A stretch of DNA of 64,000 nt from Gammaproteobacteria bacterium (GTDB taxonomy: Bacteria > Pseudomonadota > Gammaproteobacteria > Steroidobacterales > Woeseiaceae): assembly GCA_029863305.1 (NCBI GenBank), contig JAOTVR010000007.1, positions 1-64,000 of the forward strand, given 5' to 3'. Positions 22,419-27,727 of the stretch are shown here, piece after piece. A program made the position numbers and the translations under genes. How positions within the stretch are numbered: the stretch's first letter is position 1; each line of letters opens with the position of its first letter. The notes beneath the pieces are model-generated. The model did not search any database and was not told the DNA's origin. It was given only the letters and a program-made list of their open reading frames with translations.

Positions 22419-23237
22419 ATGAGCCCATCAACCAATAATCATGCGGACCGCGGCTACATCATCCCGATCGGCGGCGGCGAAGAGAAGTTTCACCATCCGG
22501 AAATTCTCGATCGATTCATCGAGATTTGCGGCGGCGAGGACGCCCGGATCGGCATTATCCCTACGGCGTCAGAGCTTGAAGACACGGGTCGAAATTACGA
22601 GAAACTGTTTCGGGAGATCGGCATCAAGCACACCAAGGTCCTGCCGTTTGAAACCCGCGAGGATTGTGAGTCGAGCGAGTATCTCGAGTACATCGAAAAG
22701 TCCGATGGCGTGTTTCTCACCGGTGGCAATCAGCTGCGTCTGTCGACGACGCTGGGCGGGACTGCGGTTGCGCAACTGATCCGGCGACGCAATGCGGCGG
22801 GCATGCACGTGGCAGGTACATCGGCCGGCGCCGCGTTTGTGCCCGAACACATGATCGCAGGCGGCCATGAGGGCAGTACGCCGAGTCCGGACATGGTGAC
22901 GATGGCACCGGGACTTGGATTGACCAATAAGTTCATTGTGGACCAGCATTTCCGGGAACGTGATCGTATGGGTCGCCTTTTGACTGCACTGGCATACAAC
23001 CCTTTCGCCGTCGGTCTTGGCCTTGATGAAGATACGGCCGCGTTCATTCAGCCCGATGACGAGCTCGAGGTTGTCGGCAGTGGCGGAATCACGATAATCG
23101 ATCCCTCGCAATTGAGCTATTCTTCGATGCACAAGGCGCGCCGCGGGGAGCCGGTGAGTCTGATCGGTGTGACATTGCACATTCTGGTATCGGGCGGACG
23201 CTTCAAAACGGCGTCGCGGGAAGCCGCGCCGGAATAG
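22419..23237 (+). CDS. cphB: cyanophycinase
   Basis: GYIIPIGGGEEKFHHPEIL...FLTGGNQLRLSTTLGGT...HVAGTSAGAAFVPEHMI...KFIVDQHFRERDRMGRL...GLGLDEDTAAFI. Confidence 0.95.
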   Translation: MSPSTNNHADRGYIIPIGGGEEKFHHPEILDRFIEICGGEDARIGIIPTASELEDTGRNYEKLFREIGIKHTKVLPFETREDCESSEYLEYIEKSDGVFLTGGNQLRLSTTLGGTAVAQLIRRRNAAGMHVAGTSAGAAFVPEHMIAGGHEGSTPSPDMVTMAPGLGLTNKFIVDQHFRERDRMGRLLTALAYNPFAVGLGLDEDTAAFIQPDDELEVVGSGGITIIDPSQLSYSSMHKARRGEPVSLIGVTLHILVSGGRFKTASREAAPE

Positions 23238-23257: not shown

Positions 23258-26044
23258 ATGAAAATCGTCAGCACAAATGTGTACGTCGGACCGAGTGTCT
23301 TCGCGCACTTTCGAGTTATTCGCCATGTACTGGATCTTGGCGAACTCGAGCACTGGCCCACAGTGCGCCTCGGCGAGGCGTTTATCGGGCCATTGCTCGA
23401 CACGTTGCCGGGCCTGCATGAACACGGCTGCTCTTACCAGGAGGCGGGCGGCTTCGTCCGCCGCCTCAAGGACGACGAGGGCACCTGGATGGGCCATGTC
23501 ATGGAGCACGTGGCTATCGAACTGCAAAACGTTGCAGGTTCGCCCGTGACCTACGGAAGAACCCGGTCCATAGACGGACAGCCCGGCTTCTATAATATGG
23601 TGTTCGAATACCATGACGAAGCCGTTGGCCGTGAGGCCAGCGCACTGGCCATCAACTTATTGCTCAGCCTGCTGCCGAATGACATCGAGGTGGAGGGCCG
23701 GCCGGAAGCCGGCTGGGATTTCGCCGAGGAGCGTGACCGTTTCATTCGTTACGCGCAGTCACGTGCACTCGGCCCAAGCACCGCGTCACTCGTCAAGGCT
23801 GCCGAGGAGCGCGATATTCCCTGGATACGCCTCAACCAGCAAAGCCTGGTCCAGTTCGGCCATGGTAAATACCAGCAACGCATTCAGGCAACGACGACAG
23901 GGTGCACGGGAAACATCGCCGTGGAGCTGGCCGGTGATAAAGAAGAAACCAACGGAATCCTGCGTGATCTCGGTTTGCCGGTTCCCGAGCAGATCATCGT
24001 GCGCCGCGCGAACGACGCTGTTCGTGCAGCGAAGCGTATCGGCTATCCAGTCGTTTTGAAGCCACTGAACGGCAATCATGGCCGCGGTGTATCGATCAAT
24101 CTGAAAACGGAAGAAGAGGTCGAGCAGGGATTCGAAAAAGCGCGCGAACACGGCCGCACGATTATTGTGGAAAGCTATATCGAGGGATACGATCATCGCC
24201 TGCTGGTCGTTAACGGCGAACTCGTCGCGGCCGCAAAACGCGAACCGGGCCACGTGGTGGGTGACGGCAAACACACCATCGCGGAGCTCGTCGATATCGT
24301 CAACGAGGACCCGCGGCGCGGTGTCGGTCATGAGAAGGTACTGACACGACTCGAGTTCGATCACCAGGCCGAGCGCCTGCTGAAGAAGATCGGTTACGAT
24401 CGGGACACCGTGCCGGCAAGCGACGAGGTCGTTTACCTGCGATCGACCGCAAATCTGTCGACCGGTGGCACGGCACTCGATGTCACCGACACCATTCATC
24501 CCGATAACCGAGAAATGGCGATTCGCGCCATCAAGGCAATCGGGCTGGATATCGGCGGTGTCGATTTTCTGACCAACGACATTGCTCTGTCTTATCGCGA
24601 GGCAGGCGGAGCGATATGCGAGGTCAACGCGGGTCCGGGTTTCCGCATGCATGTGGCGCCGAGTGAAGGCACGCCTCGGGATGTCGCGGGGCCGGTTATC
24701 GACATGCTGTTCCCTCCGGGTACGCCAACACGTGTGCCGATCGCCGCGGTAACGGGGACGAACGGCAAGACGACGACGTCGCGCATGCTCGCGCATATTC
24801 TCAAAATGACGGGATTCACGGTCGGCATGACGTCGACCGATGGCGTTTATATCGACGGTAAGCTGACCGTGGCAGGGGACATGACGGGTCCGAAATCCGC
24901 ACATATGATTCTGCGCGACCCGTCCGTCGATGCTGCGGTGATGGAAACTGCTCGTGGTGGCATGCTGCGCAGCGGTCTCGGCTTCCGGCGCTGTAATGTG
25001 GCGGCCTGCCTCAACGTCTCGTCTGATCATCTCGGCCTGCGCGGTGTGGAAACGCTCGAGCAACTTGCCGAGATCAAACGCGTGCCCATCGAGATCGCCA
25101 TAGATGCCGCGATACTCAATGCCGATGACCCCCTGTGCCTGCAGATGGCTGATTACACCGAGGCCGAGCGGCTTTGCTACGTGACGATGAATCCGTCGCA
25201 CACGCTGGTCAAACAACATATTCGGGCCGGCGGTGAGGCGTTTGTGCTCGAGCAGGCGCTAAACGGTCATATGATCGCGATTTACGACGGTGAGACGCAC
25301 ACGCCATTATTGTGGACGCACCTGATCCCGGCAACGATCGAAGGTCGTGCCATGCACAATGTGCAAAACGCAATGTTTGCCGCGGCGCTGGCGTACAACA
25401 TGGGGATCGCCATCGAAGACATCCGCCATGGTCTGCGCACGTTTGACTCGACCTTCTTCCAGGCACCGGGCCGGATGAATATTTACGACGAGCATCCGTT
25501 CAAGGTGATTCTCGACTACGCGCACAATGCTGCCGCCGTCAAAGCCATTTGCGATCTGGTTGATCGTTTCGATGTCGAGGGCCGAAAAATCGTCGTGCTG
25601 GCCGCGCCGGGCGACCGGCGTGATGAAGACATTCGTGATATTGCCGGATTCGCTGCCGGTCATTTCGATCACTACATCTGTCGCCGCGACGACAATACGC
25701 GTGGTCGCGATGGTGACGAGGTGCCGACGATGCTCAAGGATAGATTGCTGCAGGAAGACATACCTATCGATGCAATCGACGTCATTCCCGACGAGCAGGA
25801 AGCAACGCGACATGCCCTCGAGATAGCAAGCTCCGGCGACCTCGTTCTCATTTTGGGTGATAACGTAAAACGCACCTGGAAGCAGATCATCTACTTCAAT
25901 GCTGGCGCACATGCCGAGGACTCCGTTGCAAGAATTCCCACGGCGATTGAGCTGCCCGAAACGGATGATTTCGTGTTCGACGATGATGTCGAAATCATTA
26001 GCGATGAGCGTGGTGTGCGCATCGCCCGCGAAGAATCCGATTAG
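23258..26044 (+). CDS. cphA: cyanophycin synthetase
   Basis: 928 aa: N-domain, ATP-grasp (VLKPLNGNHGRGVSINLKTEEEVEQGF...), Mur ligase (VTGTNGKTTTSRMLAHILKMTG...METARGGMLRSGLGF...DYAHNAAAVKAICDL). Confidence 0.97.
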   Translation: MKIVSTNVYVGPSVFAHFRVIRHVLDLGELEHWPTVRLGEAFIGPLLDTLPGLHEHGCSYQEAGGFVRRLKDDEGTWMGHVMEHVAIELQNVAGSPVTYGRTRSIDGQPGFYNMVFEYHDEAVGREASALAINLLLSLLPNDIEVEGRPEAGWDFAEERDRFIRYAQSRALGPSTASLVKAAEERDIPWIRLNQQSLVQFGHGKYQQRIQATTTGCTGNIAVELAGDKEETNGILRDLGLPVPEQIIVRRANDAVRAAKRIGYPVVLKPLNGNHGRGVSINLKTEEEVEQGFEKAREHGRTIIVESYIEGYDHRLLVVNGELVAAAKREPGHVVGDGKHTIAELVDIVNEDPRRGVGHEKVLTRLEFDHQAERLLKKIGYDRDTVPASDEVVYLRSTANLSTGGTALDVTDTIHPDNREMAIRAIKAIGLDIGGVDFLTNDIALSYREAGGAICEVNAGPGFRMHVAPSEGTPRDVAGPVIDMLFPPGTPTRVPIAAVTGTNGKTTTSRMLAHILKMTGFTVGMTSTDGVYIDGKLTVAGDMTGPKSAHMILRDPSVDAAVMETARGGMLRSGLGFRRCNVAACLNVSSDHLGLRGVETLEQLAEIKRVPIEIAIDAAILNADDPLCLQMADYTEAERLCYVTMNPSHTLVKQHIRAGGEAFVLEQALNGHMIAIYDGETHTPLLWTHLIPATIEGRAMHNVQNAMFAAALAYNMGIAIEDIRHGLRTFDSTFFQAPGRMNIYDEHPFKVILDYAHNAAAVKAICDLVDRFDVEGRKIVVLAAPGDRRDEDIRDIAGFAAGHFDHYICRRDDNTRGRDGDEVPTMLKDRLLQEDIPIDAIDVIPDEQEATRHALEIASSGDLVLILGDNVKRTWKQIIYFNAGAHAEDSVARIPTAIELPETDDFVFDDDVEIISDERGVRIAREESD

Positions 26045-26053
26045 CCGTCGCTC

Positions 26054-27727
26054 ATGGAATTTCTCGACGCGCGCAGACTAACTGGTCCAAGCCTGTTATT
26101 CGACGCGCCGGGCACGATCCTCGATGTTGCCTGCAGCCGCGAAGAGGCCGTGCAACTGGTTGCAGTCTGGGAGCGGCATGTCCGGCGCATGTTGGCCGAA
26201 CTGCAATGGAATGGTTGCGAATTTGCGTCGGTACAACTCCAGGGCGGCGTCAGCCTGGGCTTCACGGCGCCGATCGATGCCCTGTATGCCGCTTCCGAAA
26301 TCAACGAATGGGCGTGGGCCGCAATTGATGCGGAGCTGAACGGCGCCGAGGAGCCGGATTTTACGGAGGCCGTTGCCGCTTTACGAGCCGCGATCGCCGA
26401 GGAAGCAAATCCTGGGCTGATGGACATCCGGTCCAGGGCATCGCGCGAGAAGGTAACACTGCTTTGGGATGATGACGAAGCATCGCTCGGGCTCGGCCGC
26501 TATTCGGAGACCTGGCCGGTGCGCAATCTGCCTGATCCGGATGCCCTGGACTGGAGCGCCTTCGGGGATGTGCCATGCGGACTGGTTACCGGAACGAACG
26601 GCAAGACGACGACGGTGCGCATCGCTGCGCATGTCTTGCGGACGGCGGGGCACAACGTTGGCTTCAGTTCGACCGACTACATCGCCATCAATGATCGCAT
26701 TGTCGATCGGGATGACTGGTCGGGGCCGGGCGGCGCTCGCAATGTGCTGCGTGAACGGGACGTCGATGTGGCAATTCTCGAAACCGCGCGCGGTGGGCTG
26801 TTGCGGCGCGGGCTCGGCGTCGATAAAGCGGACGCGGCGCTGATAACGAATATCGCCAAAGACCATCTCGGTGATTTCGGCTCGCAAAACCTTGACGAGC
26901 TCTTGAACTGCAAGTGGATAGTGAGTCGTGCAGTTGCCGATACGGGCAAGCTGATACTGAATGCTGATGATGCACGACTCGTGGCCAAGTCAAAGGAATT
27001 TCCGGGGCAACTCGTGTGGTTCTCTCTCGATTCGAATAATGACGTGGTACGGACGCACACAGCGAACGGCGGGGCGGCTTTCGTACTCGATGGCAACGAC
27101 CTGATGGTCGTTAACGGGAACATTCCGGAATTAATCTGCCGCGACCGCGATGTGCCAATCACACTGTATGGTGCGGCTCGGCACAACGTCGCGAATGCAC
27201 TCGCCGCGGCGGCGCTCACCTGGAGCATGGGCGTGCCGCTGGCTGAAATGCGCGACGGGCTGACGACGATGATTCCCGCAAAGAATCCGGGCCGCGGCAA
27301 CATTTACGAGATCAACGGCTTCAGGGTCGTTGTGGATTTTGCACACAATCCTGAAGCCCTGCACGCGTTGCTGGACATGGCGAACCGGATGTCGCCGAAA
27401 CGCAAGGCGCTGTGCTTCGGTCAGGCGGGTGACCGGCCTGATGACCTGATCCGCGAACTTGCTCGCGGTGCCTGGCAAAGCGGTCTCGATCGCGTCTTTG
27501 TCTCGGAGCTTGCGAAGTACCATCGTGGACGCGAACCGGGGGCGGTATTCGCGGTCATCCGTGACGAACTAATGGCATGCGGTGCCAGGGTCGATCAAAT
27601 TGAGCACCACATGGAAGAAATCGAATCTCTCGACTCGGCGCTGGACTGGGCAGAACCGGGCGATCTGATCATCATGCTGGCACTCGAACGATCGCAAGAA
27701 CTCTACGACAAATTGCAGCGCATGTAG
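26054..27727 (+). CDS. stand-alone CphA-type Mur ligase (no recognisable ATP-grasp domain)
   Basis: GLVTGTNGKTTTVRIAAHVLRTAGHNVGFSSTDYIAIND, AILETARGGLLRRGLGVDKADAALITNIAKDHLG, VVDFAHNPEALHALLDM; ~170-aa N-terminal region unlike CphA. Confidence 0.88.
   Translation: MEFLDARRLTGPSLLFDAPGTILDVACSREEAVQLVAVWERHVRRMLAELQWNGCEFASVQLQGGVSLGFTAPIDALYAASEINEWAWAAIDAELNGAEEPDFTEAVAALRAAIAEEANPGLMDIRSRASREKVTLLWDDDEASLGLGRYSETWPVRNLPDPDALDWSAFGDVPCGLVTGTNGKTTTVRIAAHVLRTAGHNVGFSSTDYIAINDRIVDRDDWSGPGGARNVLRERDVDVAILETARGGLLRRGLGVDKADAALITNIAKDHLGDFGSQNLDELLNCKWIVSRAVADTGKLILNADDARLVAKSKEFPGQLVWFSLDSNNDVVRTHTANGGAAFVLDGNDLMVVNGNIPELICRDRDVPITLYGAARHNVANALAAAALTWSMGVPLAEMRDGLTTMIPAKNPGRGNIYEINGFRVVVDFAHNPEALHALLDMANRMSPKRKALCFGQAGDRPDDLIRELARGAWQSGLDRVFVSELAKYHRGREPGAVFAVIRDELMACGARVDQIEHHMEEIESLDSALDWAEPGDLIIMLALERSQELYDKLQRM

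Follow-up and report, generated by a model that had tools for sequence, protein, structure and literature searches.

Cyanophycin is regarded as a polymer of aspartate and arginine, with some lysine, that is made by one enzyme, and it is pursued as a biomaterial. The locus described here raises the question of why a complete cyanophycin synthetase gene should be followed at once by a second gene that carries only the Mur ligase half of such an enzyme. The window, that is, the whole stretch of 64,000 nucleotides that was analysed, comes from a gammaproteobacterium of the Woeseiaceae (contig JAOTVR010000007.1). It contains the following triad of genes:

22419 to 23237, + strand: cphB, which opens the triad and encodes a cyanophycinase of 272 aa; TIGR02069 at 256.6 bits (cut-off 126.6), Peptidase_S51
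23258 to 26044, + strand: cphA, full-length cyanophycin synthetase, 928 aa, with N, ATP-grasp (G) and Mur ligase (M) domains; TIGR02068 at 1134 bits (cut-off 850)
26054 to 27727, + strand: stand-alone ligase, 557 aa, a CphA1 paralogue without the ATP-grasp domain and of predicted N-M architecture

The initial annotation had placed a Mur-only CphA paralogue directly after cphA. This placement stands, since both genes lie on the same strand and a gap of 9 nt separates the cphA stop codon, which ends at 26044, from the ATG of the N-M ligase at 26054. The 557-aa open reading frame was read at 26054-27727 (+), and the three CphA-style Mur ligase signatures quoted for it were all recovered, TGTNGKTTT at residues 179-187, ETARGGLLRRGLG at 243-255 and AHNPEALHALLD at 430-441. 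Full-length relatives of 39-83% identity occupy the equivalent place in tens of genomes and, hence, this frame is not a chance one. The CphA of the window reaches 1050 bits against PDB entry 7lgm. The genes flanking the triad (QueF, TauE, GH16, M3 peptidase, EVE, PhoU-like, phosphate transporter and gamma-glutamyltranspeptidase) suggest no further operon member.

Which parts of CphA does the second protein retain? Residues 171-557 align in hhalign with the CphA M domain over 376 columns with 35% identity (prob 100), and the TIGR02068 match, which spans residues 172-555 and profile positions 478-859, is confined to the Mur half. At 365 bits (E = 7.5e-109), this match stays below the equivalog cut-off of 850 bits, which applies to the full-length enzyme. 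The Pfam families PF08245 and PF02875 (Mur_ligase_M and Mur_ligase_C) are matched with 82.8 and 52.9 bits, above their cut-offs of 24 and 28.4. The protein shares these domains, the P-loop and the order of the GDR...R motifs with MurE-type muropeptide ligases. In contrast, it scores 100 bits on the MurE profile TIGR01085, below the cut-off of 257 and with E = 1e-28 against 1e-109 for CphA, and its N-terminal domain is predicted to be that of CphA, not a UDP-MurNAc-binding domain. Residue conservation was counted over 51 stand-alone and 74 CphA M domains, and the main elements are as follows:

26564 to 27724, + strand: Mur (M) domain, residues 171-557, from the hhalign alignment to the CphA M domain
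26588 to 26614, + strand: P-loop TGTNGKTTT, with K184, T185 and T186 in 51/51
26780 to 26815, + strand: ETARGGLLRRGL, with the Mg2+ Glu243 (51/51) and the family-specific R252 (51/51)
27335 to 27352, + strand: DFAHNP (DYAHNP in CphA), Tyr replaced by Phe in 45/51

The P-loop, E243, D270-H271, K287, R414, D428, H431, N432 and R461 are present in all 51 stand-alone domains. In TeCphA1, the lysine equivalent to that of the P-loop is required for activity (PMC9427784). The invariance of the ATP-binding and catalytic residues in the stand-alone family argues for a working ligase.

The region in front of the Mur domain was harder to place:

26054 to 26563, + strand: N-terminal domain, residues 1-170, predicted to be a diverged CphA N domain (AlphaFold2 model with Foldseek; conservation)

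The initial annotation had described an ATP-grasp module replaced by another N-terminal domain, and had proposed HMM and structure searches of these 170 residues. The profile searches returned nothing: the N domains of 12 stand-alone members have no match in Pfam, hmmsearch against the PDB gave none, and hhalign against the CphA N domain gave a prob of 0.5, with no relationship detected. Structure comparison, the sole search that worked, retrieved CphA1 and CphA2. With the AlphaFold model of the whole 557-aa protein (pLDDT 92.7, pTM 0.91), Foldseek ranked CphA1 chains first (7lgj, 7lg5 and 7wae; query TM 0.82-0.84, 874-883 columns), and the alignment consists of the 557 residues plus a gap of ~320 residues at the ATP-grasp domain of CphA1. 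Since this score exceeds what the M domain alone could give (about 385/557), the overlay takes in the N domain. Moreover, when the N domain was modelled alone (AlphaFold2, pLDDT 95.6) and compared with 350,542 chains, CphA1 and CphA2 took ranks 1-11, and all matches with E <= 0.001 were among these. These Foldseek results point to an N-M architecture. According to the models, the N-terminal ~170 residues are a diverged CphA N domain, of the polymer-binding kind, and the protein is a CphA1 minus its ATP-grasp G domain. Thus, nothing seems to have been replaced: the predicted N domain is CphA's own, and ATP-grasp is absent, with no Pfam match in the 557-aa protein and a Foldseek alignment that skips about 320 CphA1 residues. 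The label 'no recognisable domain' for residues 1-170 was ruled out by the structure comparison. Within the stand-alone N domain, RRL-G, D75 and G146xG148 are invariant, and the helix at residues 74-96 reads IDALYAASEINEW.

The N domain of CphA1 binds cyanophycin and, in most CphA1s, also cuts the polymer into primers through a Cx19HxxEH site (PMC9262961). This primer-making motif, found in 83% of CphA1s, is missing from the N-M ligase, which has no HxxEH in residues 1-170. The polymer trimming that had been suggested for this protein is therefore unlikely, given a ligase fold and an N domain without the peptidase motif. The N-M ligase resembles CphA1 (TIGR02068; 7lg5, 7lgm, 7lgn and 7wac) in its N and M folds, catalytic residues, N/M placement and operon context. 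It differs in having no ATP-grasp G domain and no HxxEH, in its altered amino-acid-selecting residues, and in an identity of 35-40% that concerns the M domain only; by architecture, it would be unable to add Asp to the backbone. CphA2 (7ta5 and 8fxh) is likewise a specialised relative of CphA1 that has a single active site and no HxxEH in its N domain (PMC9262961), and this site polymerises beta-Asp-Arg dipeptides (PMC10206079). However, CphA2 has an ATP-grasp domain, whereas the N-M ligase keeps the Mur site, and neither Pfam nor Foldseek found in it an active ATP-grasp of the CphA2 type.

Two features of the partner CphA bear on what its neighbour may do:

23429 to 23509, + strand: Zn-peptidase motif of the CphA N domain, in the form Cx21HxxEH, which exceeds the published Cx19HxxEH (PMC9262961) by two residues
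25991 to 26041, + strand: conserved C-terminal tail of CphA, EIISDERGVRIAREESD, preceded by a variable linker

The Cx21HxxEH form, with a two-residue insertion before EGTW, occurs in every partnered CphA examined. It is relevant to the idea that the N-M ligase supplies primers, by forming beta-Asp-X or another starter for CphA chains. CphA1 does need (beta-Asp-Arg)-Asp or longer as a primer (PMC9262961), and both an N domain and a Mur ligase site are still present in the stand-alone protein. However, because all partnered CphAs keep the C..HxxEH primer-making motif, a second source looks unnecessary; in addition, a Mur domain is unable to form the Asp-Asp backbone bond, and we consider primer supply very improbable. 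The partnered CphAs displayed end in a conserved tail, ...DERGVR...D, which was considered as a partner-specific docking peptide. This candidate was dropped because 7lgm and 7lgn, the CphA1s of A. baylyi and T. morbirosei, carry a weaker form of the tail. In the tree, 7lgm and 7lgn group with the partnered CphAs (100/100). The N-domain motif has been lost from the T. morbirosei enzyme, TmCphA1, which needs no other protein to make cyanophycin in vitro when given a primer (PMC9262961). The partner is therefore dispensable for the basic reaction in that CphA clade.

As judged from MurE, the 'GDRD' and 'DNPR' regions are where Mur ligases select the incoming amino acid, and the Arg of GDR binds the alpha-carboxylate of that amino acid. 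The corresponding elements of the N-M ligase are:

27428 to 27532, + strand: predicted amino-acid-selecting region, GDRPDDLI ... E485-L-A-K-Y489-H-RGR, against GDRRDEDI ... DDNxRGR in CphA
27683 to 27685, + strand: L544, at the position of CphA D868 (Glu in solved CphA1s); L, H or Q in all stand-alone rows

R788 of CphA (74/74) is replaced by P, T or S in the stand-alone family, being kept in one row only, and D791 (74/74) mostly by L. In every stand-alone row of the comparison table D868 gives way to L, H or Q, while Y754 mostly becomes Phe and DDN reads x-x-Y/H. Moreover, R252 has been gained, as it is invariant in the stand-alone family (51/51), whereas the same site in CphA is occupied by S, E, A or R. 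At the positions of R788, D868 and Y754, the CphA1s of known structure, which use Arg, still have R, D/E and Y. One stand-alone member, L080, keeps R and D. By analogy with MurE, we infer that the changed positions concentrate in the part of a Mur ligase that selects its amino acid donor. D791/D811 are lost in most Woeseiaceae stand-alone proteins, and several other lineages have Asp or Glu there; a complete loss of the acidic pocket residues was thus ruled out by the wider table. The proposed rebuilding of the pocket rests on R788, D868 and Y754, together with the gained R252.

What, then, might this pocket accept? The GDR arginine, R461, is kept in 51/51 members of the stand-alone family and, given its role in MurE, the donor is expected to be an amino acid and not ammonia. 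As regards arginine, the sequence table has the residues conserved among Arg-adding CphAs replaced in the stand-alone ligase. We infer that a different side-chain amino acid would fit the rebuilt pocket. With its distinct nucleophile site, an M domain that otherwise resembles that of CphA could also serve to cap the chain end, in which case the terminal Asp side chain or alpha-carboxyl would become an amide that CphA cannot extend, and the cap would set polymer length. Substoichiometric action would be enough for this purpose, which fits a separate gene, but the same features are equally compatible with internal modification, and we regard capping as quite unlikely.

Whether the second gene is a regular companion of cphA was addressed in genomes and plasmids. 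The search of genome contigs gave 34 matches, mostly from Woeseiaceae and also from a planctomycete (L031) and Lysobacter (L034), one of the 34 (L038) being weak and unrelated. On plasmids, the stand-alone ligase was found in Ruegeria (two records), Shinella and Roseateles, and three plasmid regions carry the triad annotated as cyanophycinase - cphA - 'Mur ligase family protein'. In 58/58 loci with the pair (Proteobacteria and one planctomycete), mur immediately follows cphA in the same orientation, with many gaps of 0-20 nt, overlaps included; in all 53 loci where cphB was found, it precedes cphA, again on the same strand. Within the order of the window, a CphA-type Mur match was obtained for 47 of 147 genomes, 44 of which show both genes. 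The CphAs of G331 and G361, seemingly unpartnered, and the seemingly CphA-less partner of G355 were traced to contig ends; G331 and G355 resolve to the pair, G361 runs off its contig, and the pair is present in 46 of the 47 CphA-bearing genomes. Another family has 24 genomes with both genes and 6 with neither, and one genus has 8 with both and 5 with neither. A CphA of the partnered subfamily occurs in 8 genomes of the class sample, and the stand-alone N domain was found in these 8 and in no others. Plasmid CphAs at least 62% identical to that of the window have the partner in 4/4 cases, and the search of 15 plasmid CphAs less than 50% identical to it gave no second place matching the partner.

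The stand-alone M domains form one clade with 100/100 support. Distances between stand-alone ligases correlate with those between their CphAs (r = 0.85; reached in 0/2000 Mantel permutations), part of which reflects shared descent, and the ligase evolves at about twice the rate of its CphA. The stand-alone family is, hence, monophyletic, paired obligately with one CphA subfamily, and gained and lost with it. This obligate pairing, co-loss and co-divergence support a role on the polymer, and agree with the initial proposal of a paralogue tied to cyanophycin synthesis.

Some individual loci deserve mention. G1164 (G1164:C1:1293840-1296859) has a CphA with an in-frame TAG and a short frame, and a partner match that lacks the first residues; such joint decay is in line with joint loss. 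In G1180 (G1180:C14:66310-68004), a member of the G267 genus, the stand-alone ligase has an in-frame TAA and the CphA frame is open. An AT-rich gammaproteobacterial genus with genomes of ~2 Mb (L077, L078 and L079) has the pair without a recognised cphB adjoining, and its gene content is one that we take to be reminiscent of Francisella. In Francisella LVS, cphA affects gene expression (PMC2763202). On a plasmid of Ruegeria sp. THAF33 (L064:5043-7664), a saccharopine-dehydrogenase-like gene and an aldehyde dehydrogenase gene precede the triad, which might hint at lysine-related chemistry.

The tight coupling of the two genes, with overlaps or gaps of 0-20 nt, and their obligate co-occurrence would also be expected of a mixed complex in which the N-M protein is a subunit of CphA that still adds Arg, or helps the CphA M domain, and raises rate or processivity. 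CphA1s are tetramers whose N and M domains touch the polymer (PMC9262961, PMC9427784). However, at R788 and D868, where Arg-adding CphAs are invariant or have D/E, the N-M ligase carries other residues. A related CphA1 is active by itself in vitro (PMC9262961), and we find such a complex unlikely. Even less probable is a small-molecule role in which, for example, the beta-Asp-Arg dipeptides that cyanophycinase releases would receive an amino acid. The operon does contain cphB and, unlike the cphA-iaaA-cphB operons of Rhizobium, Sphingobium and Deinococcus, the triad has no isoaspartyl dipeptidase gene. Nevertheless, the N domain retained is of the polymer-binding type, the position behind cphA is invariable, and L077-L079 have the pair without an adjacent recognised cphB.

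The predicted inability to extend the backbone, the polymer-binding fold, the conserved catalysis, the changed donor pocket and the constant presence of CphA indicate that the stand-alone ligase most likely modifies CphA's polymer. We tentatively favour an N-M half-synthetase that acts in trans on the cyanophycin of its partner, to which it attaches an amino acid different from Arg. The N domain would hold the chain made by CphA, and the M domain would phosphorylate a free carboxylate. The likeliest target is the side-chain carboxylate of the Asp at the C-terminus, the residue just added by CphA's G domain. An amino acid other than Arg would then be joined to the activated carboxylate, and the outcome would be a mixed or end-modified cyanophycin. 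Against this explanation, the M domain of the partner CphA appears to be intact, and enzymes of its own clade (the CphA1s 7lgm and 7lgn) have been characterised as cyanophycin synthetases alone (PMC9262961 for T. morbirosei). A more demanding version, which we consider doubtful, is an obligate two-enzyme system in which CphA lays down beta-Asp-Arg and the N-M partner attaches another type of amino acid to arginine carboxylates or to a fraction of the Asp side chains, so that a mixed polymer results. This system would belong to one CphA subfamily, found in proteobacteria and in at least one planctomycete.

NCBI names the members 'Mur ligase family protein' only, and their scores are far below the CphA cut-off. 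In the open-access literature, we found no characterisation of the N-M family. One report mentions 'cyanophycin ligase-like proteins' in connection with its supplement (PMC3646047), possibly an earlier sighting of the family. The portion available of a study of cyanophycin gene clustering, which covered cphA1, cyanophycinase and dipeptidases, makes no mention of the N-M gene (PMC10206079). An obligate partner with the polymer-binding domain of CphA and a rebuilt pocket would imply an overlooked polymer or control step, and the sequence comparisons suggest that some bacteria decorate cyanophycin with something other than arginine. The N-M ligase is thus an immediate candidate for making altered cyanophycin, and the predicted N-M form joins CphA1 and the ATP-grasp-dependent CphA2 as a further member of the CphA family.

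Other arrangements of CphA-like genes were also encountered. Three unpartnered loci, from Deinococcus, Rhizobium and Sphingobium (L135, L136 and L137), read cphA - isoaspartyl peptidase - cyanophycinase, and differ in order and content from the cphB-cphA-mur triad. On plasmid 3 of Deinococcus deserti (NC_012528; L138:5023-7197), a protein of 724 aa annotated 'Mur ligase family protein' combines a Mur half of the CphA type with yet another architecture, and neither cphA nor cphB adjoins its gene. Finally, a second CphA-like gene of ~720-910 aa adjoins another CphA in many proteobacteria (G255, G270, G292, G202, G170, G150, G219, G196, G207, G225 and G082), which is a separate, tandem arrangement.
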